Shown piece by piece: positions 8,050 through 45,353 of a stretch of DNA of 64,000 nucleotides. Below the pieces are notes generated by a model. It was not told the origin of the DNA. It made no database searches and was given only the letters and a program-made list of their open reading frames with translations. The translations under genes and the position numbers were made by a program. Position 1 is the stretch's first letter. The number at the start of each line of letters is the position of its first letter. The stretch comes from Tubulanus polymorphus (taxonomy: Eukaryota; Nemertea; Palaeonemertea; Tubulaniformes; Tubulanidae), in assembly GCF_964204645.1 (NCBI RefSeq), contig NC_134028.1:25704153-25768152 (forward strand), given 5' to 3'.

Positions 8050-9074
8050 TCATTGCGAACCGGACGACATACTACCAGCGCGACTACGTATCATACTAAC
8101 CGGCGTGATACTCTTACGCTCTTTCGAGCCGACCATCGGCGACGACGTCTTGCGTTCTTTCTTACGCGAGTTATCCTCGCGGAACTGCGCGTGTTCCTTG
8201 TTCGCTTTTTGCGCCGCTTTCGTCGCCGAATGATCGATCTGCGCGTACGACGTCAGTCCGTCTCGCGGAACTGTTCGTTTCACTTTACTACTACGCTTGC
8301 TCTCTTTCGACGACGACTGACCGCTGAGGTCGATATCCGCGTAGTTCAGTTGAGGTGAACTAGATAATAATTGTTTACCGTTCGTCGTCTGCTGTTGTTG
8401 CTGCTGCTGCTCCTTCGAGCGTCCCGGAGACAAATCCAATTCTGCATAGTTTAAAAGCGGATTAATCTGTTCTAAAGCTTGCGGACTGACGCCGAACTGA
8501 GGCGGCGTACCGGGCGGCGTATCCATCGTATTCATGTACATCATTTTCGGCGATTCGCGCACGTTCATGTAAATACGCTGATCGCCACCGGTGGCACCAC
8601 TGATACCGCCGCCGCGCTGTTGTTTATGGCCGCGCAACGCAGCCGCGACTTCGTGCGGAGATTTCGGCGAGTCGTTACCGTGACTACTGAAGTAACTGTT
8701 ACGCGTCGGCGAGCCGTTCATCTCCTGATCGAACGTGAAAACCGACGTCGAAGAAGTTGGCGAAATCGGAGTCGTCTGCGTGGAGTCCGCAGCTCCGGCG
8801 CCGCTGCCGCCGTTACAGTTCAAATCTTCGGCGAGTTTTTTGCGATCGAGTTTCTGGTATTGTTTACCGGACCGCGGTCGTAGAACAGTCGCCGCCGGAC
8901 TAGTCTTTAAGATGTCGTCTTGGCGACCACCGGCGTGCGCGTCGCTGCTACCGTGCGACGACAATGACAACGAGTCCATGTAATCACCGACGACCTCCGA
9001 CGACGACAACGCTCCTCGCGACTCGGCACCTCGACTCGTCGTATCGAATCCCGCGTGTCCGAATTTAGCCGCAT
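8050..9074 (-). CDS. DOK7-like gene terminal exon with YMN and YAxxD motifs
   Basis: Last coding exon, about residues 1213-1552, ending in the stop whose complement is at 8050-8052. Acceptor CTATTTTCAG sits just above 9074. The first two bases complete a GAT codon with the last G of exon 6, so the junction is in phase. It carries YMNV and YMNT (Grb2-type), then three spaced copies of a Y-A-x-[LI]-D motif (LNYAELDL, LNYADIDL, SYAQIDH) resembling the C-terminal tyrosine sites of IRS1, where SHP2 binds. A short polyglutamine run lies between the first two. The strong codon bias makes several long shadow frames on the plus strand. Confidence 0.82.
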
Positions 9075-12000
9075 CTGAAAATAGACGAGAGAAATCGATT
9101 ATATACGGACGCGATTAGACCCGCATGACGCGTAGTTAACACGAGCACGCATCAATTACAATTTGAAACCGTCGTGACAACCGATTACAACAATGATGTT
9201 CGATTCACATTTCATAATTCCTGGATGTAAAAATAGCACGAACAGGAAGCGGCGAAGGCGTTCAATGATAATCATTGGCCGTTCTATTTACAGTCGTGTT
9301 TATGTGGCCACTTCTATGTGATTTGCGTTATTCCAGGGTGTGGCAACTTTCCGCCTGTTTATAAATTCCCTGATTTTTCTTCTCATGTTATAACCCCGAA
9401 CTCCCTGAATAAATCCCGAAGAAATTCTTAAGTTTAAATGTTATAATTCATTCATATCAAGTACTGATAAAGAACACGTGGTCAAAAACAAAACAAATTC
9501 CCTGATTTTTTCTAAATTTGCCTTAAGTTCCTGAGTTTCACAGGTTGCCTGACTATTGTACGAGTAAGAGTTTTCCCTCATTTGAACTGCTGAGAATTCC
9601 TTCATGTCAAAAACAGTCAAATACAAAACACGAACATAAGCTTTTGATAAAATATACTAGCGATTTCAACAAACATTCTTAAAAACGTCAAAAATGCTAA
9701 TTTTTTCTTCATAATGTGGGATTTTACTTAAAACAGCCACATGCCCATGGAAACCGATCTATCAATCAATCCATTTATATCTCATAAATTATCGAAATAT
9801 TGCAGAAAAAAAGAAACAACGATGATTTTCATTTGAAAACCCACAACGCAAATAGACACGAAACAACCCTATAAATTTCATAACAGCCCAGACAATGACA
9901 ATATTTATACAATATGCAGGTGATCGAGATTAAATGTAGCTGGGTTTTTTTTCTTTCGTCAAAAAAATATTGTTTTCGCATGATAACAACTCGATGAAAA
10001 TAATATTTATTGCCGATAGACGGCGATAAATATGCAAAATAATCGACTTATTATCATCTTTTTCGAAAAAACAATAATGATGTCTACAAAATGTATATTT
10101 ATTGGCTTTTTAGTTCTGTCGCGAGCATAATCACCGCATAAAACAGTCGATTATAGTTGTTTTTCGCGGCTGTCGTCGATGTCACGGTAGTAACGATAAT
10201 TTCAAAACGTGATTTCCGAGAACGACCAGATAAAAGCTGTCGCTAATTCGGTAAGAATGGGGAAGCTTAAAATTCGAGCTTATAGCGCCGAGTAACAAAC
10301 AAAACGACGGTAATCTTTCTAATACGCGGTTTGACGTCAATTCATAGCAGTCAGGGCCGGAGACCGGCCGTTCCGAGAACCAGATACATCGAGATACCGA
10401 TCGGCTGTTGACAATTTCCGCACTCGAAAACCCATATTTGATAAACATTATCAAAGCCGATGCTAATACGCAATCTCAAACCCCTCGAGAATGACACCGG
10501 ACCATGACGTCTCAAACCCCTCGAGAATGACACCGGACCACTACGTCGACCATGTCGTCTACGATACGACTGATATTTCCCGTCTAAATGCTACTATGAA
10601 GAGGTTGTGCGGAGGTAAACGATCGCAGCAATACGTTCATCTCTCACGACTCCTCGACCGCCGATCATGATGGATAAGACACGTTTGATTATATACGTGT
10701 AAATCAGACGCCGCTGCTGCTGCTGCTGCTGCTGCTGCGAAATGACCGGTTTTACCACCACCACCGGCGAGCGACGACGACGAAAAAACCATCAATTTTA
10801 TTATACGTCGCGCAGCGGGAAGATCGTTTTCCAGGAAATACTGTCAAGACTAAGACGGATCGACAGCACGTATGATAGAGAGGACAATAGGTTATTTACA
10901 GGTTATCCTACATCTGTTCCACGCTGCACCTGCGGATTTAACTGATGCACGTAGCGGCGCCTTTATCATAAAAAACAACAACACATCCTTCCTAAACATT
11001 ATCAAAATCAGGGGTGAATCCAAGGGGAGGGTGCAGGGGTGCACACACAACCCCCCCCCCCCGAATATCAAGTCGCCCGAAATTAAGTGGAAAATATGAA
11101 CTACATAATATTATCTCATGCTTTAAGTCTAAATTTATGTTCTTCATACTTCTAAAAATGAGGTAAAGTTTTACGATGATCGGATGCAATTTCAATAATT
11201 ATATGATATGCCCTATTTTGGGGTCGAACCCCTCCCTGAATCAAACCCTAGATCCGACCCTGAAAATTGAACCTACGAAGCAAATATGATTCAAAAATTC
11301 AGTCGAGTCTCGAGTGTCGTAATCTATTTACTCATACTCATAACGTTCCCAATTTTGCATAACCGATTTAATTTACTCAGTTGTCAGAAAAATGATCATC
11401 GCACCTTGAAGCGAGTTCGACTGAAATAATCGATTTCAATATATAGATGTATCGTGAAATTCTAGTTTACGGTACACGCTGAAACTAAACAGCTGCGCAG
11501 AGAAATAATAATAACAGGCGCTTACTTCGTGCGGTAGCTGGTGTAAAAATGATGAATCCATAATAATGATCATCAATATTCACCGAACTGTCTCGTCCTT
11601 CGTGGACCATCGCGCCAAACATATCCAACATCAGATTACAGTTTTTCCGAATCCAACTGATTAAATTCTTCTCTTCGGCAAAATAGTCTAATATCCTCGC
11701 GTTGCGGCGTCGAGGTAGAGTATTACGTAGCAGCACTGACGACGACGAGGAGCTGGCAATCGCAAAAACTTGTTTATATAAACAAGTGCGTAAAATAGAT
11801 ATCCTGAACAAGTGATGGGTATAGAGAAAAAAAAACCCTGAATTGTTTGTTTCCGATTCGCTGAGTTTTCTTCGAAATCAATGAGGAGTATTTTTTCGCG
11901 TAATGCTTGATGGCATCGGCGTGGTGCACGCGCGCGTCAGCTCTACAGAAATATATCTAAGAAAATGTGTCCGGGTTTCGCGCATAACAACTGATAATGA

Positions 12001-15000
12001 CTGTCGAAATCGACGTCATTGACACATGGTGCACCCGGGTGTACGCATATCACATACAAACAGTTCATAGATCACATTGAAATACGAACCCAACCAATGA
12101 CAATCATCTACGACCCTGGATTTTTAATAATTAGGTCGCCATCGCAGCTAGCCGCTGATTAGCGCTAACATCTAAGTGCCCATATTACTGACCACTGTTA
12201 TTCTATTACGCATTCTGACTAATCAGCGGTTTTAATATTCATCAGAATATGACCGCTGTAGGGATATGTGTATATATACATATATATATATTTATCGGTC
12301 TGTTCTGTTCACCCACCGGCTTAATGACAATAGACCGAATGAACTCCCAATTTTAATATTCAAACCACCTGTTTCACGCATTCACAAATGCTTTTTCACT
12401 GAATTCTATATACATGTAGTATTTTTCAACTTTCAACTCATGAAGTTCACTTCGCGGTTGTAAGTAAAGCTGGAACCTAGGAGCAGATCGAGGAATTTTG
12501 GAAGGCAGGGGCCCGGAAGATAACGGAAGGGCGTTTTTCAGATAAACCAGCCAGCCAGCGGGGTCCCTCCTTCGGTAATAGATATCTTTGAGGATACTTA
12601 TGCGAGGATATTTGCAGGGTTAATGATCTTAGTCTTGATGAAAAAGGCAACCACAATGGACCCCTGAGACCAGCCGCTAAATCCACACCTGGGAACTTAG
12701 TATTCATTTGAGAGGGGATAGAGTAGAAACTCAATCAGGTGCCACGGATCCAGGCGTGTTCATGGTTCCATCGATGTGCATTCTTAACATTTTCCTGGTT
12801 GAAATTAGGAATAAAATATGTTCACAATGTCCCCATTTCTAAACTTAAGTCTTGGGGAGAAAATTCGAAGGTGACCCGGCTGAAAAAAGTGGCCGCCTGC
12901 GCCTCCTGCATCTCCTATGTCACAAGACCATCGAAAGTAGCCCTCGGATCCTGTCAAGAGTTTAAAATAAAGCAGACCTCAATTGCGTCTTACTATTTAT
13001 GCGAATATATGCAATTAGAACGACAATCAGCCGACAATCAGCCGGGTAGGTCCGGGTAGATCAGACCGCTGACCGCTGACGTGCTCTGTCCGTCTGGACG
13101 TCATGAAATGGTCAATTTCGTAGTAATCAGCGTCTTATATCTCAAGTGTTTACGACTTGGATACAAGCGCAAACTAAATAGAACAGAAGTTCAAAACCCG
13201 TATTAGAATATTATCGCCCTCCCTCCGAGGGGAATATGTGTAGAACTCAAAACAGTGTAATCACACCGCCGTACCCTGGATATACAAACCCCTTCTAACT
13301 ACTAGTACATATATTTATTTTCTGTTTTGTAATGAATCTATAGTATACTAGTACCAACACTCCGGCGCAACCCGAGCTCCATTTGTAAATATATCATTAC
13401 ACAGTATGCATATAGACATCGAACCAAATGGCAATGAACAAAAATAAAAAATACTGGAAGGCTGACAATTTTATACTCATCAATCAAAGTTCCCGAGGTT
13501 GCCATTGCTTGACTTCATTCCGTTTTCGTGGAAATAATGTGGCGATTAGGGCAGAAAAAAGTCAGCACGCAAGGTGAGAAATATCTTTGAAAACATCGGA
13601 ACGCAGTTGAGTACACGCAGTTGAGTACACGCAGTTGAGTACACAGTACGACCTGCCAAACAGTCAATCACCATATCAGGGACAAAAAAGCAAATTTTCA
13701 GGGTCACAACAAGGAAGAATGAAGAATCAAAAATAATTTTTAGAGAGACTGTAGAAATTGTTTCAAGGACAGCTATAGGTTTTCAATACAGCATAAAACA
13801 AACACCAGTTGGGACAGAGAGGTATTTTCAGGGACAGCTCTGTAGTATATTATATACTCTCTGACATCAATTACAAGTTCTAGTACGAACTAAATGAATC
13901 TAGGCTAAAAAACAGATATATCGACCTCCGATACGAAACAGTTTTCCAGAATTAATACGAGGGAAAGAACTCGCTCACAGTCGTCAGTTCCCGAGAATTG
14001 CACCTAATACTGCGTATATGGTGAAAGTCCTGTAGGCCAAATATGGAAAATTCATAAGATAAAACCCAAAGTCCGTATATGCATTTAAATACCGCACCAA
14101 GAGGGTTTAGTGATAATAAACTAACAACAACCGCCCCCACTGGTGCTATATCGGATACAACATCTGTCGTTATACTCACCAGTACGGTGGCTCCGAATGA
14201 CATCCAACGTGTTCGGCCGACGTTTAGGCCTCGTAGTGAACAATGTTCCCGAAGAACAGCCTAAAAACATCGTCAGGTGGAGCAGGCCCGGTTTACACTG
14301 ACTTTATAGATAGATCGTCACCACGGGTTTCAACCACGTTCATCTGAGAGATCGCGAACTCAGCCACACAGCTGTTACAATAACCACTATGTAAACAACA
14401 GCAATCCAGCCAATCAGCTCGCTTATTGTAGTGACAGATTGTCTGATGGCTAGTTCGACTTCACGCACACTTGTTTTGATATAAAAATGTAGGCCTTGTA
14501 TTCTGTGCACAGGACTGCTCTGCATCAATGACCTCGTTTAGTGAACCTCATTACGTGGACCTCACAGCGTGATCTTTGCAAAATGAACCTCGTAGTAAGA
14601 ACCTCATAGAATGAACCTCACAAAAGTGAACCTCACATAAGTGAACCTCACAAAAGTGAACCTCACAAGAGTGAACCTCACAAAAGTGGACCTCACAAGA
14701 GTGAACCGCACAGAGTGAAACTCACGGTGTAGGTCCATTTTGCTGTCCAGCCACAATCAGAGGCTGACTGCGCATAATCATAACTACAAACAAAATATCT
14801 ATTTCCGCTGAATAAACTTTACAGCCTAAATCTACGAGAAAAATCCTCCATATTTAATGACACTCGTTTAAAAATGATCTGTTTCAAACGGACACACAGC
14901 GAGTATGACGTAAAACAGCTTTCAGACGAATATCGCGCGCGGCAGCTGTAATATTCACTTCAAGGAGAAACTACGTCATCTACGACACAAAAAACAATAA

Positions 15001-18000
15001 TATCACACACGACACACGACACACGACACATGTGCGTGCACTATCAACAACCAAAACAATCTTCACATCAACAACAACATTTTTTAGAGATTTTTGTGAT
15101 GGTTGAAATCTGAATTTTGCTGGAGCGCAGAGTATGATTGAGTTCAACGACAGGGTTCAACGTATCAAGTTTTCAAATTCCTTTTTCACGACGGGAATTT
15201 CAAGACTTTTTCCTGATTCTTTTGAAAATTGACAAGATCCCCTGACTATTCCCACCAACCTTTTTGAAGAAATGAAAATTTCCTGACTTTCCCCCGATTT
15301 CCAGGCAAGTGGCGCCACCCTGACATAACGAGATCTTCATTGAGATAAATCTAGAATCTAAAAAGTTTGTGAGAATTACATGAACTGAATATCAACCACC
15401 TTAATTGATGAAAAAATTAATTTACCTTAAATAATGAGACCAGAACTGTTTTATTATCACCAGACAGAGTACCAGTTACCAGACTGGACAGAGTAAAGCT
15501 CAGATCCACAGAGCACCAGTTACCAGACTGGACAGAATAAAGCTCAGGTCCACAGAGCACCAGTTACCAGACAGAGTACCAGTTACCAGACTGGACAGAA
15601 TAAAGCTCAGATCCACAGAGCACCAGTTACCAGACTGGACAGAATAAAGCTCAGATCCACAGAGCACCAGTTACCAGACTGGATAGAATAAAGCTCAGAT
15701 CTACAGAGCACCAGTTACCAGACTGGATAGAATAAAGCTCAGATCTACAGCGCACCAGTTACCAGACTGGACAGAATAAAGCTCAGGTCCACAGAGTACC
15801 AGTTACCAGACTGGACAGAATAAAGCTCAGATCCACAGCGCACCAGTTACCAGACAGGATAGAATAAATTTCAGATCCACAGAGCACCAGTTACCAGACT
15901 GCGTATAAGTTGAACTGACACTGAATGAGAGTTGAGGTGATGTATCTAACGGCTTATCATTCATTTAGACGACTGACATCAACCTTGACTTCAGAAACAG
16001 AGTATATCTGGCGGCATGAGGAGGGCAAAATCAGGGCATCGTTGATTGGGCTGAATTATTCCACAAGGACCAGGCGAAGGTGGATTTAGGGATGGACTGG
16101 ATGGACTAGCCCACCCCTTTCAGTATTCGCATGTGCTTTCCAAAAAGTTCGGATGCAAAGAAAATTTTCAAAACACTTCATATAAATCCAAATGGCTTGT
16201 GATAGATGCAAGAAAAGCCCCTTCTTTCATGTGCAAAATCTTCAAAATCTTCTGGTCGGAAACAGAAACCCCGCAATTATGTTCTTGCAGTGCTCGCATC
16301 ACCAAATCTGCCCTTTTCAAATTAAGCACCCATATAAATTTTCAGGTCGACCCCCTTCAAAGAATCCTAGATTTGCTCATACCAGTCTAGTCAGAAGTAG
16401 TACGTAAATAAACTCCGCTGAAATTTTGCCCGACATTTTAAAACGAGAAACCAATAAAACTAATGTGGAGTGATTAGCGATTGAGAGTGCGCCGGGTTTT
16501 ACTTCGTTATCTGTAACGAGCCGTTTGTAGCTGAAGCTCACGTGTTAATTCAGCGTGTCGTCACATCTAGACACCGGGCCGACCGAGCTGCCAGTCTCTC
16601 ATTACAACAATTACAACCATCTTATGATCGAATCCGGTAAACCTTCCCCTCGTCGAATCCGGTAAACCTTCCCCTCGTCGAATCCGGTAAACCTTCCCCT
16701 CGTCGAATCTGGTAAACCTTCCCCTCGTTGAATCTGGTAAATCTTCCCCTCGTCGAATCCGGTAAACCTTCCCCTCGTCGAATCCGGTAAACCTTCCCCT
16801 CGTCGAATCCGGTAAACCTTCCCCTCGTCGAATCAGTAAACTATCGGTAATTGATATCTCGTGATGTACCGTGTAAGGGTGGATTCCACGATAGTAGCCA
16901 TCTTTTCAGTAAAGATGCACAGTTGATAGCGCGCTGTGATTTGAGAAACCTAGTCGGTGTTCCATATCTTATACTCTAATATTAAAGATTTTGACGACTC
17001 ATCTGCACCAGCGGGGATCATTTTCAGAACAGCCACACCCAGAACTAATGAATGATGGCTCAGTTTCAGCTACAGACTTCATATTCACTTTATGGATATC
17101 ACTACCAGCGTTAATAGATTTAAGAGTAACCAATACTATAGCCGCGATCTCACGGAGATGATCAGGCACGGGTCACATTAGGGCACATTTTATGCGGAAT
17201 TATGACAATGAAGTATAAGACGACGAGGCAAACTTTGCCATTAATTCCGGCTACCGGAGTCAGCAGTGAAGATCAAACAAGCTCTAAAAACTGAAGCCAT
17301 ACAAAATAGAATCACAGAGAATGTATCATCAGCTAAAAACATGTCCGCCCACTCAATCCGCTCACTCAATCCGCTCACTCAATCCGCTCGGCTCGCTGCG
17401 CCGGTGCAGTTAGCTAAACACAATGTCAAGGTTTACGACAAATACATAAGAAACCGTCGTGCAGGATGTTTTTACAAGCAAGCATCTTGTTTGTCATTAA
17501 ATAAAAGCCTGATGGAAAACCGATGTAGTCTCGCGTTTAGTCGCGGATTATCGCATTCGATGAGGTGATTTGTATTCACCGTATAATAGTAGCCCCTGAA
17601 CGCCTGCCGGCGCGCGCCAAGAATCGACACCGAATCAGAAATGAATCAAGAGTTACCGCGCTGTAAACAACATAACAACATTACCGATTCTCAAAACACA
17701 AGACATCCACGCGAAAACACTTCGATCTTTACCGGGAAGACCGGCCATAACCTTGAACCCTGATACTCGTTGAGCTAGTAAATGATTTATAGAAATCACG
17801 AAACTGTCGTTGCGCAATATTTCTCAATCTAATTCGGAGGCTGGTTCGTCTAATGACGGACTGCGTTAACCCTGAAGATGTGTCATTAAGTATTGTTAAT
17901 ACGACCGCACCGCGATTGATTGAAATATTCACCGATCGCTCGACGGGAAATGAAACGTCGAAAGTTCACGTTTCCGCGCTCGGCTCAGACGGATGTTTGT

Positions 18001-21000
18001 TACATTGAACGACATCAACTCATATCCTAACAAGATTACCATAACTAACTGACCGAACTAACCAGGAAATATCTCTAACTGCGAGAAAATATCGGAAACC
18101 TTAAAGAAATATTTCAAATCTAGAAGAAATAGGTAAAATCCAGAGGAAATAATCTTAAACCTCGAGAAAATGACTCAAACCTCGTGAAAATATCTCAAAT
18201 CTCGTGAAAATATCTCAAACCTCGTATAAAATCTCGAACTATGAGCAAATATCACAACTTTGCGATGAGATTGAACCTGATCAAACCTGATTGAGAAAAT
18301 CTCTCGAGGACAATCTATACCTTTTTTTTTCAAATAATGATCTATAGGATAAAAGAGTAAGACTGTGTACGACGCAGGGTCAAACAGTAGGAATATCGAA
18401 ACTAACACATCTACTTATTTTACTTACTCTCTAAAGACTAAAACAGATTCAAACGCTTGCTCTCAACAGGAATGATAGTTTTATAAGGTTCCAACTGTCA
18501 GTTTTCTACCCGTGGCGTGGCTAATACCGCAATGGATTAATCCACCTCTCCGCGCAAAGCCGTGGTCTCTTGATTATAAATCAGGTAGCCGGTTACAGTA
18601 AGCTGCTCATTTCTACAATAGCTGTAGATCACTTAATGAAGTTCGCTACTCACCAGGAATGTAGTGATAAGTGCGTAAAGGCTCGTGTATTCGCCGCACT
18701 AAGCACCGGTAGGTGAAATACAGGTGGATGTCTGATGATACTGCATTCCGATCAGAAAACCCTGCTACTGCTACTGAGGCCAGTGTTTACAATTTATATC
18801 ATCAAATAACTTTAACTCACTTGCCTTAGATATTTTTTGTTTTCAAATGAAAATAAACGTTTCAATGCCCGGGAGGGGGTCAGTTTCATAAGAAACGTGA
18901 AGAAAAATAACTGCTCTAGGATTTGTTAGTTATAACGTGTTTTCAAATTCCATAGTTGTGAGTTTAAAGTATAAATTACCGTTAGTGTATTTTCAATGAG
19001 TCAACTCAAAACTCAGAACTGCGTCAATGACACCCAAATTTACACTCTGTAAATTGAATTGCGAAAACGGATTTGTACCCAAAACTAAAGACCAATTCAA
19101 TAATCTGCTGACTTAACCGATGATGACTTCGACGCTTTCATGTAGCCTCTCATAATGCGGTGTATGATCCAGCCAAACAACATACCATCTATCCCTCAGT
19201 GCGATGTATCCATGTAATCACTTATTAGTTAAAATTAGTTAAAATAGTAATCAGTTAAAACTAATTAGTTAAAATCTTTTGTAAGATGGCAGCACCTGTC
19301 AAACTTCGCAAATATTAGTAAGTAATGATGATACAGCTCATCGGCGAAGGCAATGTAGCAGTGTTTGTCAGTTATAAAACAGACCGCGGTGAACTTATCA
19401 AATCTTCTCCAGCATTTCAGGGTATGAAACAGTGGCACCTGAAGGGTAAACCGCATTTAACCGCACTTAGAAGCAACAATTAATATCAAATCATTAAGAC
19501 TCGCATTTATGAATTTTTTCTAAAAAGAACGACGACCCACCTTTAGCTTTAATCTTTGTCGGCATCCAAACGGGTTCGTTATCTTCGGGAATAGTGACGG
19601 TCGTGCCGTGCGAACGACTCAATCTGAACGACGATCCTCCTGGACTACTGATCGGTATCGGATTCGATACGCTGTGCGATCTGCCGTCGGAAACATCCAC
19701 AAAATCGATTATCGCCGACGACGACGACGACGTACCCGGACAATGATAGCTCATCGAACGTTTTACGCGAGACGGTTTTTTCTTACTCGACTGATATGAC
19801 TTAGAACTTTGAATACTTTCGTTCGAAATAACGAGCGTCTCGTCGTCGTCATCGACGCCGCCGCTGCCGCTAGGGGGCGGTGTATTCGTTATTTCGCTGT
19901 CCGTGCTCTCCGATCGCGTTTTACGCGAGAACACATTTCGGGGAAGACTCTCCGAACGTTTATGCGTCGTTTTCGAGTTTTCGTCGGTCGTTTCGGCGGC
20001 GGTCGTCGTCGCCACTGACTTCGTCGCCTCGACCGGAGAAACGGCGTCCTCGCTGTCGGTGCTGACGTTGTCGTGGTTACGGTGTTTACGCCGGTCGAAC
20101 GAACTACGACGCATCAACCGCCGAAAGAACGTCGGCAATTTCGAATGTCGTTTGTTATCGCCGCCCCACGCCATCGATTTCGGCCGCGGCGATGACTTCA
20201 TCTTCGCGTAGCCGTGGCGTTGTTTGAAACGTTTCAGGTCGGTATCGGACTGCGTGACCGAATCCGTCGAATCGCTGTTTATCTGAGACTTGCTCCACGA
20301 TTCGTAGCCGGTTTCGATATTTTGCGCGTCGATGCAGCCGTCCATGCTCACCGACGGTTTCAACGACGAAAATATCATCGAGTTGTTGTCGTCGCTGTTC
20401 ATCAGCAGACGTAAACTATTCGACCTCGTGAACGTGTGTTTAATGCTGCTCGTTTTCGACTTGTCGTTAATCATTCCGGCCGAATTACAGCGTTTTATTT
20501 CCCCGCCGTGATTCGCCATCAGGAACTGAACGTAACTACCGTGCACGGGAAGTTTCAGGTCGCGAATCGTCGCTTCGTCGATTCCCGCCGAATCGAGTCG
20601 TTGCGACATCGTCGTGTGACGCGACACCAATTTCGAGCTGACGTCGATATCGACCGGATTCACCGAGATGATCGCCGTCGACGACAGCGACGATTCGGTC
20701 GCCGCGATTCCGCCGGACTTCGCGTCCGGTAATTTAACACACCCACGGCCGCTCATATCGATGTAGTCCGCGGAATCGTCGTAAATTGGCGGCGTTTTCA
20801 TCATGATGTAATCGCAATCGGTGGAATCAGATACGCTGGAATTATTTCGCGAATGAACGACTGAACTGGCGCCGCTGTATTGCGATAGATTCGTTCCGCT
20901 CATATCGATATATTCTTCGCTCGGATCGGTCGCGACGACTCTGATTTCGGATTTCGCGACCACTGGAACGCTTTCAGCCGTCGCTCCCGTCGTTTGACTC

Positions 21001-24000
21001 GCGACTTTCACCACTTTCGCCAACAAAGCGGCGCCGTCCGTCGTCGAACGACGCTGTTTACCACTAGGGGGCAGTTCTAAACACGACGCGCGATGATAGC
21101 CGACGTTCATGTAATCGGTCGACTGAGCAGATGACATATTCACGTAATCATTGTCACCGTTTGAATGTTTTAAATTCGTCGTTTCCGAGACGCCCGCCAT
21201 ATTTATATAATCGGATGACGAATTCATAGCGACGGTGATGTCTAACGTTTTACCACGACACGGCTGAACACGAACGGCCGTCGAGTTCAACCGATTCATC
21301 GCCGTCGCCGTCGGTTCAATATTCGCGTAATCGGCGAATAAACCGTTCTTCATCGACGCGACGAGGTGTTTCGGAATCGGTACGTTTTTATACGGCGACG
21401 AAATATCCGAACAATCGTCGTCATGGCGAGGAATATTCACGTATTCGCGGTTTGTTTTTAACGACTGCGTCGTCGCGGGAGGAGGAGGAGGAATGTTTTT
21501 GTAATCGTGTTCGCTCGTCGCGTCTTCCACGTGGAATCCGTACGTTATACACTTCGACGGAACGTTCACGTACGAATGTTTTTTCAGAATCGCCGATTCG
21601 TCTTTCGTCGACGATTCGTCGGGCGCCGGAACGACGACGTTCGACGCCGCTTCGTTTTCGACCATCTTTTTAATCGTGCTCACGTCACACATGTAGTCCT
21701 CGTCTTTGCCGTCGTATTTTGCGAGGTTAACGAACTCGAGAACCTGCGAGCCGCGTTTATTCGGACTCGGGTCGAGATTCGCGGCGTCGCCGATCAGCAA
21801 CATGCCCGACGGCACCGGGCACGCGATCGAAGCGACCGCCGGGCCCGACCCGCCGTCGTTCTCCTCGTCGCAGCCCGAATCCGGACTCGTCGACGAGAAG
21901 TTGCGATTGAAGCCCGGTTGTTGTCGGTACGAACTCGCAGAGGTAGAAGTCGTTCGTAAACACGCGTTGGAATCGGAACCGATAACCGCGTCGTACGGAG
22001 GAGCAATAGCAGACGCGGGTCGGACTACCACATCACAGATAGAATTCACGTAACCCGTTTTATTAACTAGATTAGCGACGCTGGTGGCGCCACCGCTAAC
22101 GCGTTTACGACTATGAGTTTTTTTACCGCGCGGCGGTAATTTCGGTACGTCGCGACCTTGACGTTCGATCGCGGATCCACGTGGCGGTAATTCCGGGGCA
22201 AGGGCGGCGTCGGTTGTCGTCGGTACGTCTAACATCGTATCCGAGCGTACGCACCGCGTTCCCGAGAAACTCTCGACGCGACGCGGGATACTCGGCGGAA
22301 CGTCGTACGTCGAGTACGCGCGGCGTTTATCCCAACCGTCGAGCGCCGACTGAGACGACGTCGCCACCGGGTGACTCGCGCTACGATCTCGCAACGCGTC
22401 CGAACGAAAGTTCAAATCTCCGTCGACCTCCTTGTTGTCGAAGTCTTTCACGCCGGGATGCGCCGGTTTGAAATTCTCTAATTGTTGACTTAGAGTCGAT
22501 CCTGAAATCAGATGAAAAAGACTTTCGATGTAGAATACCATCAAAACCTGATACATGAAAGATTGCGAATTATTCATTGAAAATTAAAACCAAAGAAAAG
22601 ATACGACTCGCACTAGAGGCCAGCAAGTTTTTTTCAGGATGTTTTGAGAAAATGCAAAAGCAATGAATTGTATAAGAGACATCTGTGTGGAATTCCCATT
22701 ACGATGAGTCCCTTTTATAAAATAAAGAGTCCACGGGGCTAATTTGGGGCAGGAACCAATGAAATATATTGACTTATAACCTTTTAGGTTTTTTCAAAAT
22801 TGAAGCAGTTTAATGAGTTAAGTATAATTAGTCAAACTCAGAGGAGTTGCGAGGTCTTTCGAGGTTTTGAGGAATTACATGATCTAGTATGAACTATGTT
22901 TGAATACTGCATACTTCTATTGACGGTGTGTCTATGAGGAGCCGATGATCGCGATGTTGAGTCGTGGTGTAGTTGACTACGACTTAACGTCGTTTCTTCG
23001 ATTCTGGCGTTTATTTCGTGAGCTTTATCAGTGGCGAACGCGTGAATACCAGAACCTACGAAATCAACAAAAAAAAACACAGCCGTTAATTTAGGATTAC
23101 GTGTATTAAGCCCAACGCGCACGGCATCGAGACAGAAAAAAAATTCTGTCGTTTTGCTGCTCGCAAATGTTCAACGCGCGCAACAAAAATACCTGTAGAC
23201 AACAGCTGTTTCACCAGTGAATCCTACGACAATAAACTCAGTTATTCACATTTATTTTAGTGTACGCCATGTGATGCAGCGATGCCCCCTGATTGGTTAT
23301 CAGTTTTTCGCTTAAGTGGATATTTCGCGAAACACAAATTGACCGACACACACGAGACGAAAAACGTTCTCAACGACACCAAACATTTTTTGCCCGATTC
23401 GCGAAAAATGACTGGCGTTTAGAGAAAACCCTTTTCTCCTGCTTAGTGCAATGGGCTTTAAAGCCCGACGCACACGGCAAAACATCGCCGAAACAGAAAC
23501 ACGTTTTTCGGAAATGTTTTTTGCTCGTGAAAAACGTTTTTCAGTTCAGCGTTTTTTGTTTTGCCTCCCCCGCACACGGCATAACAAAAAACATCGAAAA
23601 CGTTTTTTCACGTATATTTTTTTACGGTGATTAAATATTTTTTCTTTGCGCGTGTGTTGGGCTTTATCAACTGTGTTACCGTGAACTGAACTGATAAATA
23701 GTTGTCACGACCGGATATTTCCGAAAAATAAACTTCGTTATCAATAACAGCTCACGCAACCGAGTCATAACAACGATATAATTTCGATTAAATCCCGAGG
23801 CAAACTTCAGGACAATTTGTTTTTGCGTTTTCAGCCAGAATTAAATCTTACCACGCCGGATATTCAACGACCGATTCAGTTCGGGTTTAACGTTAGCAAC
23901 AATAGAATTGATTTAGATAATATAAGTGCAATCACTTCCTCATAAGTGGCTGCAAGAGCTGAGATTTCCGAGAGCCAAATGATACTTGTACGAACTATCA

Positions 24001-27000
24001 CTATTTCAACTATCATTCAATAGGAAGTTGCTGTCGTTACGATTTCTGTATTTTGCGTACGAACTATAAACATGGTTCCCACAGTTATATGAATTAAAGA
24101 TTCCCAAGTTTTTCCCAAGTATTTCATGGGTGATTTTTCAATTTTCCCAAATGGAAATGAACAGATATCATCATACTACAGTCCACATTTTAGCGGTGAC
24201 TGGTTGATCAAAAGGTGAGGGAAATCGCGAAACGTAAATGAATTTCCCAAACATTTCCCTGATTTGAGGAAAATTTTTCAAATTCCCAAATATTCCCAAA
24301 CCGGGAATTATCATTTAAAAATTCCCAAGTTTTTCCCAATTTCCCTGTTCTGTGGGAACCATGTATATATTTAACAAAAACTTTGCGTCATCCGCACACA
24401 GAGCGACCACTTCCCCCAATTTACAAATTCCCCCAGTTTTCCTGATTTTTCCATAGCCTAACAGAAAATTCCACGAGTGAATTTGAGGAATTTCTCAGTC
24501 CAAAATGTTAAGATTCATTCAATTTTCATTGAATCGCGAACTGATAAGAGACACACAGGCAATATCTGAATTCCCGGAGTTTTCTAGGTTTTCGTTAGAA
24601 TTTGTCAAATCGCTTTCCTTGATTTTTATGATTCCTCGAGTTATCCAGGTCAGTGACCAGCCAGCATACTCTGACAAAATCAATGAAAAAGTTGGCGATA
24701 AATATTCTATTACCGACCCAAGACAATTACTGACATACAACAGCTGTTCGCTGAAATGTTTGTCTTTGCGTATGAACACAATGAAAGAATCATCGTAATC
24801 CGCGTGATATTGATTTAACCGAGCGGGAGTTGTACCGAGCGGGCGTCGAACCGAGCGGGAGTTGTACCGAGCGGGCGTCGAACCGAGCGGGCGTTGTACC
24901 GACCTTTTCCACAGCGCGAACCACCTTCGAAACAGAACTTCTTTTCGATGACGCCGAACTTCTTCAAATCGCACAAATGCCACGACCAGAGCAGCTTCGG
25001 AGGGAACGACATCGTGAGGTAGAGTCGCTGGTTTTGAATATGCAGACGAACGGGACCGATCGTTAGTTTACTGTGACCGGGTACCCGTACTAACAATACC
25101 GCATATTCAACATCTATATATAAATATAACAAAGACAAACACGTTATATAAATACAGTTCACTGGAACAAAAATTCAGAAACAAATCGCAACTAAAATCA
25201 TGGAGTTCTCGGGAGAATCAGGAGTTTTAAAAGAGAAAATTTCTATGGAGGAATTGTCTGCATCACTTTGATATCCCAATTGTGGTAGACTACTCCTAAA
25301 TCGGTACTGTTTATCTCGGTAAAACCATTAATTCAGTGGTTTCGTAAGTAATAATAATAATAATAATAATATTAATAATGATAACAATTCCATTTTGTCA
25401 TATATGAGCATTATATAAGTTTTCTCATGACTGACACACAGTCTATATAACATAGATGACGGGATGTACGGAAAGCCATTGTCGGTTGTGAACCCAATGA
25501 CGCAAACGAAGCAAATCATTATCCATTACACTATCTAAACTCAGAAGCTAATTTGGTAACCACCTAATTGCGTAAAAACAAATCAAACTAACGTAGTTCA
25601 CAATATACAACCCACAAACTAGATATAACTGCCTATTTCTCATAATTGAAGGAGTTTCAGGCATTTTGCTCAAATTAAAAGAGTTTAAAACACCTTTAAA
25701 ACAGTTTGTTTAGACAGAGTTTCTAGGGAATCAAGCAGTCGTAAGGACCTTGCGTGATCAATCTGCCATGAATGACATGAAATCTTGAGCCTTTAAAAGC
25801 AGGCTTAAAAATATAATAGGCCTAATATATTCAGGGGTGGATTCATTAGGGGTGAGTAGGGTGTGCACCTCTCTTTTGGGGAGTGGTATTACCAGAATTC
25901 ATCTTTAGAAAATAATGATTTTAAATGCATGAAATGCCATCTAAAAGCATCCATTTTTCAAAATATTTTTGCGAGAGGACTTTGTTGGTCCACGTGGCTG
26001 CCACCTTTTCCAATTTTCTAAATTTGCCCTGATACTTTCATACACTGTTGTACATATACTATGTACATAAGAGTATGTACAAATTAATGTACTCTAAACC
26101 TCCCCTTACTCAAACTTGGCCAGCTCTTAGACTTTTGACTTAACTCGGATATAAATAAAAATCATTTTTTTCTGAGAATATTTTGATATCTTTAGGAGAA
26201 GTATTCGCAAATAGTAGCGATAGTCAGGTCGGCTATGTCTGTATTTTTTGATTTACCGTTTCCGAGGTATTTCTTGATTTTCTCCGTCCAAAATTCAATG
26301 GCGTCTTTCGTCGGGAAGGCGAGAATGAGAACGTGGTTTTGACAGATGATGCACAGAACGAACTGTTCCTTGTCCATCGGGAAACCCTGTTCGATCGTGT
26401 AGAAATCCTCATTCGGAATTGTCGCCGCAAGTTTATTCAAGTTGATGTTGTTGTTTCTTTCTGCGATGTCTTTGAATAAGATGACGTGAAGCCGATCTGA
26501 AAATACCAAAACGATCACCATTTTTTTGTGAGGACATTTTCAAACTCGAGTCTGTTTTAACTATTTCTAGCCATTTCAGGCAAATTCACCGGACTGACAC
26601 TTCAGTCAGTAAGGTGCTCCCTCCCGGTGCTAACAGCGCTGTATTTTGGATGAACGGATGATTAAATGATAAAAGGGCAAAAAAATACCTAAATATGACC
26701 ACAGTCACCCGAAAACCAGGTCAGTCAATGAAAAGGTTAATAGCAGCTGATTGAACAAATATCGTAGACCAGAATGAAAATAGTTTTCCAAAAATACAAT
26801 TTTGAGCGAGAATGGATCGATTCATGTCATGATCTGATATCATGAAATGTTCAACGTATTTGATATTAATGATGACAGGTTTGTTGCCGATAAGCTTGTC
26901 GTTCCTTTTATCAAATAAACCAGGTTCGAAAGTAATACATTCGAAATAAGAAATATTGTCAAATGAGGTAGGCGCGAGCAAATACAGTTGTGGGAGGATA

Positions 27001-30000: not shown

Positions 30001-32217
30001 TTACTGAAGTTTCCAGCACAATTACAATACTATTCGGGTATATTATAACATATTTTCTATATATCAATTACAATTGTTCTGGCAGCGATCCAGCCAGACA
30101 CAAGACGAGAGAGAGAGAGAGCGTTCACATGTACACACACATACACACATACATATAACATAACCCTACAACAACAAAACCACGCAAATAACAATGAAAC
30201 ATTAGCACAATGTACTATCCCTGTACCCCCCCCCCCATACGCTCGCATGGTGATAGACCCTCACGCTAGCTAGACCATATTCTCCATATATATTCCCATC
30301 AGTTTCAGTTCCTTTTTTAATATAGCACAACTAGCAACAGATACAATCAACACGGCCACTTTCCGCCCATTTACAAATGCCCTGAGTTTATCCTGATTTT
30401 CCATGTGATTACTCAAAATTACCAGATTGAATCAGAGAAATGTCAAGGTTAAAAATGTTAAAATTCATTAATTTGTCATCGAATGACTTATTGATATATA
30501 GAGACACGTGGTCAATAGCATTATCTGAGTTTTCCAGGTTTTTGGTAAAATTTGTCAAATTCCCGATTTTTTCTTTCCAGACCAGTGGCAACCTGACAAT
30601 GCTATGCCCCAGTAAGCATGGCGCTGTGAACTGGGATACAGCTAAAATCAAGCTGTGTTTTAATGCAGGTGACCTGCAGCCTGCACCAAACGCCTTCAGA
30701 TATTTGATACAAATTAATCTGTTCTTGAAGGTTGCGTCACCCAGATTCCTGCTCGATACATTCTTATTTGAAAATCAGCTACGAATACCGGTACTTAACG
30801 TAGACATTTTATCGAAACACATTCTTAAAATTGATCATCCACATTTCAAACTGAAATGGTGAATATTAACCGTTGATGAAACACTCTGTAAGTAACAATG
30901 ATAGGCCTTGAAAAATCCTATACCTAGAAAAAAGAAAAATTTGTCCCAAAAAGTTTGCCTTCGACATATTTTTGACGAATGACTGTAGTACCCTAACCTT
31001 CATCTTCAGGATATATATATCGACACAAATCAACGATCAATCATCTCACCGATGATTTCTCGTAGGTCTAGTCAAAACATTTTTCGTTGCTGAAGATGAC
31101 TAATAGTCATAGTCATCTTCAGGAATGAAACGTCGAAAATCAGTCATCAAAACACACCTGAAGATGACTATTAGGGTCATAGTCAAAATGTCAAAAAAAA
31201 ATTTTTTCGGATACTTTCCAAGAGTGGAATTTTTCTTATTGAAATAATGAATGTCTTGAATGGGATGTGGGTTTGGCATGCCTGCAGAAGCGCAGGCAAT
31301 GTACACCTACTGGGTCCAGAATATTTGGGAATAACCTCGACCAGGAAGGTTGATTCAGTGCATTAAGATCACTTCTTAAAAACCTATGGACCGTGTAAAT
31401 TATTTCTAACCACATTTTGAGCTGAGTCATAAAACTTAACAATTCATAAATCAAATATGCTATAACTTAGTAAACAAGGGCGGTTCGTGAGGAGAAAATA
31501 TGACTCCTTGAAGACCCCAGCAATGTTATACGTGTAGGCCAGTCTATAAGGCATGTTGTGCTGTGCGTCAGGGTACAAATACGCCTACAATTCCATTAGC
31601 AAAACTTTAACTAGGCCTCTTTAAATGTGCCTATTATAAAAGCTTCAGGCTTAAACTATTGAGGTCACATGGAGAATTCAATAAATCAATTTTACCCTGG
31701 ATCTAAACCAACTTTATTTGCAAGCGATATAAAAATGATTATTTCCAGACTGGATCTAGCCAGCCACAATGCGATAGGCGTAGAGACCAGCTGATCTATT
31801 TATTAGCAAAATGATCGATGCATTGAAGATTTTGGCAGGGCTCGACTTCGGGTCAACTTCACTTTCGGTGCATTCAATCTTCTAACGTAAAAATCCAACT
31901 GAAAGAGGTTTCTACTCGAGTTTAAGAGAGAAATGTAACAGTGTGAGTTTAGGTAACGTCGCATATATATCGATTGCTGTGTGTCAGTAGTGTAGTATAC
32001 ACAGCAGTGGTGGGGTCGGTTCAAACTTACCAGCAACTGGAGACTGTTTTCTCACTACACACCACCGGGACCTCCACTAAAACGATACAGTTACACACAT
32101 ATTAACTTCTACTTTCATATTAAACTCATTTACTCGACATTCGGAAACGATTAGTACCTTTTTTCCGTCTCTATATTTCACAGGTCCTTCCACGATCGTG
32201 TTACTACGGTCGGCCAT
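8050..32217 (-). CDS. DOK7: DOK7-like adaptor with IRS/Gab-like docking tail (7 exons)
   Basis: Cytoplasmic adaptor. DOK7 family members bind and activate receptor tyrosine kinases (MuSK in vertebrates) through a PH domain and an IRS-type PTB domain. Exons read on the minus strand: 32158-32217, 32031-32076, 26257-26496, 24904-25089, 22915-23055, 19541-22501, 8050-9074. All junction phases agree and give about 1552 codons; human DOK7 is about 500. The start is the ATG at 32215-32217 in context AAGATGG. PH domain (about residues 8-112) includes VKYRDGKK, WRSRWCVVRKQSPVAD and the final helix with FWTEKIKKYLG. PTB domain (about 116-215) includes GPVRLHI, WHLCDLKKFG and FEGGSRCGKG; R174 matches the conserved DOK7 PTB arginine. 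The tail has a YDVP (Crk-type) site, LPPRG proline motifs, eleven YxN and six YxxM sites. The exon 5 donor (GTATGC) is the weakest boundary; an upstream GTAGTC is also in phase. Alternative family: IRS, but the head fits DOK7 much better. Confidence 0.85.
9334..9600. mobile_element. MITE fragment of the CAGGGTGGCCACTTTCC family
   Basis: Begins CAGGGTGTGGCAACTTTCC and contains AAATTCCCTGATTTTT, shared with elements near 24400-24662, 30351-30595 and 52996-53305 and fragments near 15175-15330, 47500-47840 and 54590-54780. Confidence 0.6.
10461..10545. repeat. direct duplication, about 38 bp, two copies
   Basis: CTCAAACCCCTCGAGAATGA followed by CACCGGACCA occurs twice back to back. Confidence 0.9.
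10708..10740. repeat. (CTG)n microsatellite
   Basis: About ten GCT/CTG trinucleotides in an intron of the DOK7-like gene. Confidence 0.95.
11010..11262. mobile_element. MITE with CAGGGGTGAATCC-type inverted termini
   Basis: The left end reads CAGGGGTGAATCCAAGG and the right end CCCTAGATCCGACCCTG, its approximate inverse. A related copy lies at 55721-55962, with fragments near 12640, 16080, 25833, 38484, 43946 and 48700. Confidence 0.7.
11526..11752 (-). other. candidate exon in DOK7-like intron 6, unrecognised protein
   Basis: An open stretch with coding-like codon use ending at a good donor (CGAA|GTAAGC). Possible acceptors are TTGCCAG at 11753 or GATATTAG at 11688. The translation includes AEEKNLISWIRKNCNLMLD and FGAMVHEGRDSSVNIDDHY. 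I do not recognise it. It might be an exon of a nested gene or a relic. Confidence 0.22.
13607..13643. repeat. 14-bp tandem repeat, three copies
   Basis: GCAGTTGAGTACAC is repeated in tandem. Confidence 0.9.
14180..14260 (-). other. candidate cryptic/alternative exon in DOK7-like intron 6
   Basis: An 81-bp stretch bounded by a GATGTTTTTAG acceptor and a near-perfect donor (CTG|GTGAGT), open in phase 0 for 27 codons (contains NVGRTRWMSFGATVL). It does not match the phase needed between exons 6 and 7 of the DOK7-like gene (phase 1), so inclusion there would shift the frame. It could belong to a nested gene. Confidence 0.2.
14340..14525 (-). CDS. possible single-helix microprotein inside DOK7-like intron 6
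   Basis: ATG-initiated frame of 61 codons containing an amphipathic stretch (SVREVELAIRQSVTTISEL) followed by a clear membrane helix (IGWIAVVYIVVIVTAVWL) and a short basic tail. No homologue is recalled. It lies within the intron between the last two exons of the DOK7-like gene, on the same strand. Only the open frame and hydrophobicity support it. Confidence 0.2.
   Translation of the reverse strand: MQSSPVHRIQGLHFYIKTSVREVELAIRQSVTTISELIGWIAVVYIVVIVTAVWLSSRSLR
14536..14728. repeat. 15-bp minisatellite (GTGAACCTCACAAAA)
   Basis: About a dozen units based on GTGAACCTCACAAAA, with spacing irregular at the left and regular from about 14590. Confidence 0.92.
15447..15900. repeat. 44-bp minisatellite, about 10 copies
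   Basis: Units start CACCAGTTACCAGACTGGAC and continue with AGAATAAAGCTCAGATCCACAGAG. Shortened units occur near the left end and around 15560. Every unit contains an AATAAA hexamer. Intron 6 of the DOK7-like gene. Confidence 0.95.
16626..16840. repeat. 24-bp minisatellite, about 9 copies
   Basis: Highly uniform units GTCGAATCCGGTAAACC plus TTCCCCT. Intron 6 of the DOK7-like gene. Confidence 0.95.
18160..18232. repeat. 20-bp tandem repeat, about 3 copies
   Basis: CCTCGTGAAAATATCTCAAA repeated, with more diverged upstream units from about 18060. Confidence 0.85.
19541..22501 (-). CDS. DOK7-like gene exon 6: long tyrosine-motif docking exon
   Basis: A single 2,961-bp open exon encoding about residues 226-1211 of the DOK7-like protein. 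Acceptor TGATTTCAG precedes 22501 and donor AAAG|GTGGGT follows 19541. Repeated motifs in order include YDVP, YVNS, YVNV, YKNI, YVNI, YKNV, YANI, YINM, YVNM, YMNV, YIDM, YIMM, YIDM and YAKM. By family knowledge YxN sites attract Grb2-type SH2 domains and YxxM sites the p85 subunit of PI3-kinase. The densest cluster is about residues 530-810. The rest is Ser/Thr-rich low complexity with basic SRS-type patches. GC content is visibly higher than in the flanking introns, as expected for coding sequence. Open frames on the plus strand opposite this exon are shadows of its biased codon usage. Confidence 0.85.
23106..23667. mobile_element. composite inverted-terminus element next to DOK7-like exon 5
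   Basis: The left end has TAAGCCCAACGCGCACGGCA and the right end GCGCGTGTGTTGGGCTTTA, approximately inverse. A second junction, GGGCTTTAAAGCCCGACGCA near 23455, suggests two abutting or nested copies. Confidence 0.55.
24071..24363. mobile_element. MITE with perfect 14-bp inverted termini
   Basis: Starts CATGGTTCCCACAG and ends CTGTGGGAACCATG. The inside is rich in TTCCCAAGTTTTTCCCAA and its inverse. It sits in intron 5 region between DOK7-like exons 4 and 5; a fragment of a similar end appears near 7340. Confidence 0.8.
24400..24662. mobile_element. MITE copy, CAGGGTGGCCACTTTCC family
   Basis: Contains GCGACCACTTCCCCCAATTT at the left and CCAGGTCAGTGACCAGCC at the right, with the family core AGTTTTCTAGGTTTTCGTTAG. 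Degenerate ends. Confidence 0.55.
24822..24900. repeat. 16-bp tandem repeat at the exon 4 donor of the DOK7-like gene
   Basis: Five units of ACCGAGCGGG(A/C)GTTGT or ACCGAGCGGGCGTCGA, ending three bases from the exon 4 boundary at 24904. The exon's frame runs on through the array, as Arg-Pro-Leu-Gly-type repeats. Confidence 0.9.
25350..25376. repeat. (TAA)n microsatellite inside a MITE
   Basis: TAATAATAA run with one ATT interruption. It lies inside a degenerate CAGGGTCCCTAC-family copy spanning about 25190-25752, absent from the copy at 41305. Confidence 0.8.
28036..28570. repeat. 34-bp minisatellite built from a MITE terminus, about 15-16 copies
   Basis: Unit CAGGGTCCCTACAGATCGGT plus CATTCCCGGATATA. 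The first 12 bases are the terminal inverted repeat of the MITE family at 41305-41689, and the following bases also match that MITE's left end. Intron 2 of the DOK7-like gene. Confidence 0.92.
28920..29420. repeat. three diverged direct copies of a roughly 200-bp unit
   Basis: Each copy has GCATGCCCATAAT (or GCGTGCCCATTAT), a GTAGTAAAGCTGA-like segment and CACTTTT, starting near 28935, 29125 and 29343. Divergence is high. Confidence 0.6.
29440..29578 (+). mobile_element. probable LINE 3' end with poly(A) tail
   Basis: The sequence ends TGTATTTGTGGAGCAAATAA then AATCTGAATC and a run of A residues. This AATAAA-TCTGAATC ending is typical of truncated non-LTR retrotransposons. No reverse transcriptase remains. 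Confidence 0.5.
30351..30595. mobile_element. MITE copy, CAGGGTGGCCACTTTCC family
   Basis: Starts near CACGGCCACTTTCCGCCCAT and ends CCAGACCAGTGGCAACCTG, an approximate inverse. Core includes CACGTGGTCAATAGCATTAT and TTTGGTAAAATTTGTCAAAT. Confidence 0.65.
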
Positions 32218-45052: not shown

Positions 45053-45353
45053 ATTGTCTCACTACCCCGCCCGGGCGATGACGTCACGCCCCGAGCTGAA
45101 AACACCGGCTGTGGCAGTTGAGGATTTCGCACCTGGCAGTCGAGGATTCAAATTCAATTCATAAACTTTATTGGTCGTTGAGTGTAATTTACATTATTCA
45201 CGAAAGAATGACCGATATATACATTTCATGAGAAATATTTTGACAATTATGATTTTTGATTAATTAGGCCTATTTTTAGACGATATTTCGGGATTTTCCT
45301 GTGGCAGTTAATCCCAAACAGCAGTTTTGTTCCGCGACATGAAGTAAAACAAA
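45053..45353. promoter_or_regulatory. bidirectional promoter between G alpha and oligopeptidase genes
   Basis: The two ATGs face away from each other with 301 bp between them. Close to the G alpha start there is a GC box (CCCCGCCC at 45065-45072) and a perfect palindromic CRE (TGACGTCA at 45079-45086). The G alpha side is GC-rich and becomes AT-rich towards the oligopeptidase start. No TATA box is obvious. Promoter function is inferred from position and motifs only. Confidence 0.6.

Follow-up and report, generated by a model that had tools for sequence, protein, structure and literature searches.

In the palaeonemertean worm Tubulanus polymorphus, a single gene is predicted to encode a DOK7 orthologue in which the PH-PTB head is followed by a docking tail of more than 1,300 residues. 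In vertebrates, DOK7 is a small muscle protein that activates the receptor kinase MuSK from inside the cell, and its tail is only roughly 290 residues long. What, then, would a DOK7 with so long a tail do? Our preferred reading, to which we give a probability of roughly 0.6, is that the protein docks on a MuSK-type receptor with its head and uses its tail to recruit Grb2, PI3-kinase and SHP2, the mechanism being proposed from sequence. The protein would thus probably be a DOK7 orthologue that works like FRS2 or IRS and yet is a member of neither family, and it may drive growth pathways directly through its tail.

Gene Structure

The stretch of DNA that was analysed, hereafter the window, is 64,000 nt long and corresponds to C4:25704153-25768152 in an assembly of 267.8 Mb and 77 contigs, from which COX1 is missing; coordinates of the gene are given as window positions. 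The DOK7-like gene lies on the minus strand from 32217 to 8050, and its exon-by-exon reconstruction gives seven exons and a predicted protein of 1,560 residues.

Exon 1, 32158..32217, minus strand: start codon, MADRSNTIVEGPVKYRDGKK, ends in phase 0; basis, Dok-7 alignment
Exon 2, 32031..32076, minus strand: WRSRWCVVRKQSPVA, 46 nt, ends in phase 1; basis, Dok-7 alignment
Exon 3, 26257..26496, minus strand: remainder of the PH domain; basis, PF00169, Dok-7 alignment and hexamer score
Exon 4, 24904..25113, minus strand: start of the PTB domain; contains DLKKFG and FEGGSRCG; basis, PF02174 and Dok-7 alignment
Exon 5, 22915..23055, minus strand: end of the PTB domain, ends in phase 1; basis, Dok-7 alignment and hexamer score
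Exon 6, 19541..22501, minus strand: tail exon of 2,961 nt, with nine of the eleven YxN motifs, all six YxxM motifs, LPPRG twice and YDVP
Intron 6, 9075..19540, minus strand: 10.5 kb
Exon 7, 8050..9074, minus strand: final tail exon, with YMNV, YMNT, LNYAELDL, LNYADIDL and SYAQIDH; stop codon included

All six introns begin with GT and end with AG, their phases are 0, 1, 1, 1, 1 and 1, and the sole stop of the joined frame is its last codon, which ends at 8050. The stretches KYRDGKK, RKQSPVAD and FEGGSRCG are all present in the head, RKQSPVAD spanning the junction of exons 2 and 3. A preliminary description of this DNA had linked a DOK7-type head to a tail of over 1,300 residues through seven exons of compatible phases; on reconstruction we arrived at the same borders, junctions and motif counts, and the tail comprises 1,328 residues (233-1560). 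The observation of a DOK7-type head joined to a long docking tail is therewith confirmed for the predicted protein.

Identity of the Head

Among solved structures, the head matches mouse Dok-7 best (3ml4; 190 residues, E 8.8e-38); the runners-up in the same comparison are FRS2 (3.2e-5) and DOK2 (2.3e-4), and the nine matches at E 10 include no IRS. In a phylogeny of the PTB domain (13 rows and 99 columns, mouse being the one vertebrate DOK7, with five of ten inner branches weak), the head is paired with mouse DOK7 at 99/97, both on long branches, rather than with FRS, with DOK1-6 or with IRS, which forms its own pair at 100/100. PF02174 recognizes the PTB domain at residues 127-208 with 39.5 bits (cut-off 22). 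PF00169 gives 22.7 bits for the PH domain, under its cut-off of 25.1, although the PH region does align to Dok-7.

Exon borders were compared as well. The borders of human DOK7 that lie before intron 5, which we take to be c.54/55, c.100/101, c.331/332 and c.532/533 and which make its exon 2 46 nt long, agree with the borders found here in both aligned codon and phase. Human DOK7 intron 5 is located at c.652/653 and c.190 (codon 64) belongs to exon 3 (PMC10117378); intron 5 of the nemertean gene is likewise in phase 1, and the position aligned to codon 64 is likewise in exon 3.

At the level of single residues, the conservation is partial. The basic residues of the phosphoinositide site of DOK7, K18/K20/R22 (PMC4961371), are retained as K20/R22/R24 in the Dok-7 alignment. 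R54 of DOK7 has no clear counterpart in this alignment, and human G64, which is mutated in patients with CMS, is aligned with a threonine. The arginines of the phosphotyrosine pocket of DOK7, presumably R158, R159 and R174, are aligned with K166, K167 and R182 of the head, so that the charge is retained while two of the arginines are not. It is to be noted that all but one of the 12 other rows of the PTB tree keep the RR of the pocket, and that the KK replacing it stands in the DLKKFG encoded at 24904-25113. This replacement may alter the dependence on phosphotyrosine. An AlphaFold2 model of the head from the single sequence had a mean pLDDT of 38.1 and was left out of the conclusions.

As judged from these comparisons, the PH-PTB head is that of a DOK7. 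Could the gene instead be a canonical IRS, or an IRS duplicate whose head has diverged? The tail is rich in YxxM and has IRS-like sites at its C-terminus, as such an origin would predict, but the PTB tree places the head with DOK7 outside the IRS pair, IRS is missing from the nine structural matches at E 10, and a canonical IRS is present at another location of the genome. We find this origin scarcely credible, and an IRS duplicate was rejected on these head matches, the 99-column tree and the separate IRS gene.

One Gene or Two

Are the head and the tyrosine-rich exons parts of one mRNA? They might be carried by separate mRNAs, one for a short DOK7 that ends shortly after exon 5 and the other for a docking protein made of exons 6 and 7, either separate or read from an alternative start. 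The joining in one mRNA is itself a prediction, intron 6 is as long as 10.5 kb, and the frame of exon 6 is open on both sides, with in-frame ATGs upstream as far as 22583, and it meets a stop downstream shortly beyond 19497.

A coding score based on hexamers, for which other genes of the genome served as training set and exons 6 and 7 were left out, speaks against these extensions. Per hexamer, exon 6 scores +0.75 and exon 7 +0.74. At the acceptor of exon 6 (22501), the score is -0.31 just upstream and +0.83 just inside, past the donor at 19541 it is -0.09, and at the acceptor of exon 7 (9074) it changes from -0.05 to +0.89; both extensions of exon 6 thus look non-coding. Since the score is about zero for exon 2 (-0.14) and exon 4 (-0.02), these two exons are supported by Dok-7 homology together with splice signals.

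Additional exons were sought by scanning AG-GT intervals that have a pyrimidine-rich acceptor and a length of 45 nt or more, with up to six candidates listed per stretch searched. None of those listed for the gap from exon 5 to exon 6 scores above zero. In intron 6, the best two candidates listed are an Ala-rich stretch (total 43) and a tandem repeat (37), followed by one of 16, as compared with 250 for exon 7, and additional exons in this intron were rejected. Scans of introns 2 and 4 are not independent because parts of both served as non-coding background for the score. As for polyadenylation signals, neither AATAAA nor ATTAAA occurs within 2 kb downstream of the read-through stop of exon 6, and one ATTAAA is found about 1 kb downstream of the stop of exon 7.

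Searches through the 267.8 Mb of the genome give, among the best-scoring candidates, no second copy of exon 7 other than exon 7 itself and no second copy of the head. Seven matches were obtained with the head, of which five are the window gene, one is the PTB domain of the worm's own FRS (7e-4) and one has an E of 0.92; a duplicate of head or tail elsewhere was discarded accordingly, as far as the best-scoring candidates go. With compatible splice phases, non-coding extensions, no listed scan candidate above zero before exon 6 or near exon 7 in intron 6, and no polyadenylation signal within 2 kb of the exon 6 read-through stop, separate mRNAs seem very unlikely. Most simply, the PH-PTB exons and the tyrosine-rich exons form a single gene, and their joining in one mRNA is predicted.

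Docking-Protein Genes Elsewhere in the Genome

A search of the genome for PTB domains gave 12 matches, among which a single IRS gene and a single FRS gene are recognized. The canonical IRS is encoded on contig C8; its PTB domain matches IRS1 at 4.9e-33, and its open frames carry GDYMDM, SGYLDM, EGYFDM and LNYASLDL...QYADIDF. A true FRS2 is encoded on C1 (L002:1390-2835) by a single exon that starts with MGCSYS, matches FRS2 at 9.6e-34 and ends with an FRS2-like C-terminus, YAMIDF...RKTRHSS. True FRS2 has been proposed to be lost in annelids and molluscs (PMC7260276), and the nemertean gene bears on this claim.

The DOK family has further members here, namely a DOK1/2-like one on C2, which matches DOK1 at 5.8e-15, and a DOK4/5/6-like one on C3, which matches DOK5 at 4.8e-23. 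On C7, a PTB docking gene that has diverged (L006, L019 and L020; C7:15294000-15313800) matches DOK1 at 3.3e-5; IRTY replaces IRRY in it, and its tail has the sites YIDT, YIET, YMKI and YTEL. One more of the PTB matches, L001, resembles talin by eye.

Because this genome has canonical IRS and true FRS2 genes of its own, the DOK7-like gene is not a stand-in for either of them. This modifies the earlier suggestion that the protein merges the roles of DOK7 and IRS: the combination of a DOK7 head with a tail enriched in motifs for Grb2 and PI3-kinase stands, while a merging of roles in which this gene replaces IRS is not supported, given the worm's own IRS on C8.

Tyrosine Motifs of the Tail

The tail has 35 tyrosines. 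YxN, the Grb2-type motif, occurs 11 times as compared with a mean of 1.76 in shuffled tails (none of 5000 shuffles has as many), YxxM, the PI3K-type motif, six times as compared with 0.92 (1 of 5000), and Y-[VIAMS]-x-[VILM] 14 times as compared with 2.16 (0 of 5000). YxxP, the Crk-type motif, occurs twice, one of them being YDVP, which is what chance would give (mean 2.17). The eleven YxN and six YxxM motifs counted in the preliminary description are therefore correct in number, with the reservation that YINM at 664 and YVNM at 685 satisfy both patterns, so that the distinct tyrosines are 15 rather than 17. The pattern YA.[LI]D is present three times (LNYAELDL, LNYADIDL and SYAQIDH), all in exon 7, with a shuffle mean of 0.017. 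These counts support a significant enrichment of Grb2-type and PI3K-type motifs in the predicted tail, it being understood that motifs themselves do not show phosphorylation or binding; direct scaffolding of PI3K or Grb2 by this protein would be the inference from them. Exons 6 and 7 match no Pfam or NCBIfam family at E 1, and exon 7 has no relative among solved structures (best E 6.5).

Is the tail akin to those of FRS2 and IRS? There are two YA.[LI]D sites each in the FRS tail of this worm and in the last exon of its IRS, and none (0 each) in the tails of the DOK1-like gene and of L006 on C7. The ratio of YxN to YxxM is 11:6 in the DOK7-like tail, 5:1 in the FRS tail and 0:2 in the last IRS exon, taken alone. 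In its motif make-up, the predicted tail thus resembles FRS2 as much as IRS. Alignment of the last tail exon with the FRS tail gives no significant similarity (58 of 1000 shuffles score as high), nor does that with the last IRS exon (291 of 1000); an unrelated GPCR loop used as control gives 112 of 1000. The FRS C-terminus, used as a genome-wide query, matches only itself. Because similarity over the tails is not significant and cross-matches in the genome are missing, the claim of kinship is limited to motifs, and common descent of the DOK7-like, FRS and IRS tails is possible.

A MuSK-Type Receptor and a Proposed Mechanism

A candidate partner is encoded in the same genome. At C2:5520326-5526980 (L033, L034 and L027) there is a MuSK-type receptor, the kinase of which matches MuSK at 1.9e-107, as compared with 1.4e-78 for TrkC and 3.7e-70 for ROR1. 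Of six pieces of this gene compared with Pfam, five are matched, as kinase, kringle, Fz and two Ig domains. A separate ROR gene elsewhere on C2 (L028) matches ROR1 at 6.2e-124 and MuSK at 3.4e-88. In the juxtamembrane region of the MuSK-type receptor, LRRNVIYHK is aligned with LHPNPMYQR of MuSK, followed by LNPKLDYLEYPRNNI as against LNPKLLSLEYPRNNI; NVIY thus keeps the asparagine and the tyrosine of NPMY, and the proline of NPxY is absent. With regard to other members of the pathway, an agrin-type NtA domain is found on C7 (L035, C7:784185-784511; 1.2e-21) and a weaker second one on C6 (2.7e-4). Rapsyn_N has no match in the genome at E 0.001, and introns may split this domain of 80 residues.

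Considering the KK pocket together with the lost proline of NPxY, the receptor partner or the dependence on phosphotyrosine may differ from those of vertebrates. One might imagine a DOK7 orthologue that serves another NxxY receptor, such as ROR, Trk, ALK or the insulin or FGF receptor, as a general substrate of the FRS2/IRS kind, and the abundance of non-Crk sites in the tail would suit this as well as the KK replacing RR and the NVIY replacing NPxY. We think it unlikely, as a MuSK-type receptor is present in the genome, including its juxtamembrane block, and the head matches DOK7 across the entire PH-PTB unit.

On the preferred reading, in which the partner is the MuSK-type receptor, the PH domain would anchor the protein at membrane phosphoinositides, and the PH-PTB head would bind the juxtamembrane N-x-x-Y of the receptor. 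Vertebrate DOK7 brings about dimerization and activation of MuSK (PMC8277574), and the nemertean head might pair and activate its receptor in the same manner. The activated receptor would then phosphorylate the tail, where YxN sites would recruit Grb2 toward Ras/ERK and YxxM sites p85 of PI3-kinase, and Y298 might serve as a Crk site. SHP2 is bound by comparable C-terminal sites in IRS1 and FRS2. In Gab1, sites of this kind bind SHP2 (BTAM; PMC2747914), and the C-terminal NYAxLDL and YAxID sites of the nemertean tail may likewise recruit and open SHP2 (Corkscrew). The set of effectors would be much wider than that of vertebrate DOK7, and the receptor adaptor would double as the main effector scaffold, much as FGFR relies on FRS2 and the insulin receptor on IRS.

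Comparison with Known Docking Proteins

How does this protein stand among known ones? With vertebrate DOK7, it shares the PH-PTB head, the basic residues of the phosphoinositide site, the phase of intron 5 and one Crk-type site, YDxP. The differences are a tail of 1,328 residues as compared with roughly 290, and a KK pocket as compared with RR. Vertebrate DOK7 has two main Crk sites (PMC8277574), whereas 11 YxN, 6 YxxM and 3 SHP2-like sites are counted here. FRS2 and FRS3 have in common with it a YxN-rich tail and a C-terminal site of the YAxID type, and their PTB is the second-best family for the head; their myristoylation signal at the N-terminus, however, lies directly before the PTB domain without PH, while the nemertean head has a PH region aligned to Dok-7. 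The IRS proteins (IRS1 and Chico) have the PH-PTB arrangement, YxxM sites and C-terminal sites of the LNYxxLDL and YxxID types, but the PTB domain of the DOK7-like protein is not an IRS one by sequence or tree, and IRS is a separate gene on C8. Gab and DOS proteins share a PH head, p85 and Grb2 sites and the paired SHP2 sites (BTAM; PMC2747914), but they have no PTB domain, which the DOK7-like protein has (PF02174, 39.5 bits).

A further group to be compared has no settled family. In 2020, PH/PTB proteins retrieved by FRS2 searches were reported as "Frs2-related" from Mollusca, Annelida, Cnidaria and Placozoa, and they were assigned to the Dok/IRS/Frs2 superfamily, none of whose families proved to be a convincingly closer relative (PMC7260276). 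Given this report, the words "undescribed system" of the preliminary description are too strong. The DOK7-like protein shares the PH-PTB docking design with them, a likeness of description and not of sequences. It could simply be one of this class in lophotrochozoans and cnidarians, a long tail being usual for invertebrate DOK7 and the mechanism the same as proposed above. Such proteins being reported from four phyla (PMC7260276), FRS2 being the second-best family for the head, and FRS2-like sites being present in the tail, we give this putative identity of those proteins with DOK7 a slightly better than even chance. We found no description of an invertebrate DOK7 tail or of a long-tailed DOK7 in the open-licence literature, which is not proof of absence. 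If they are the same, DOK7 may supply a family name for the unplaced "Frs2-related" proteins (PMC7260276).

That one genome has a long-tailed DOK7 together with a MuSK-type receptor and an agrin-type NtA domain allows the origin of the pathway to be put to the test. Did MuSK-DOK7 begin as a common growth-factor pathway leading to Ras, PI3K and SHP2, and was it cut back later for the building of synapses? It may be imagined, as a tentative scenario that we lean against, that MuSK-DOK7 predates vertebrates as a unit of receptor and scaffold, and that a DOK7 of IRS/FRS2 grade, with sites for Grb2, PI3K and SHP2, was cut down to two Crk sites as the vertebrate neuromuscular junction was specialized. 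If so, the YA-x-[L/I]-D sites that DOK7, FRS and IRS share in this genome would be what is left of one docking tail ancestral to the PH/PTB superfamily.

Other Features in the Window

The window also contains an apparently intronless open frame of 877 codons on the minus strand (49534-52164), which on inspection resembles a seven-helix receptor whose third inner loop comprises about 500 residues and which has no Pfam match at E 0.01. A G-alpha gene (42545-45058) lies near it. In the DOK7-like gene itself, intron 2 contains a 34-bp tandem repeat at 28041-28573 (15.7 copies, 95% matches), and further tandem arrays are located at 14599-14725, 15459-15901 and 16628-16841, and at 24817-24902, directly at the donor of exon 4.
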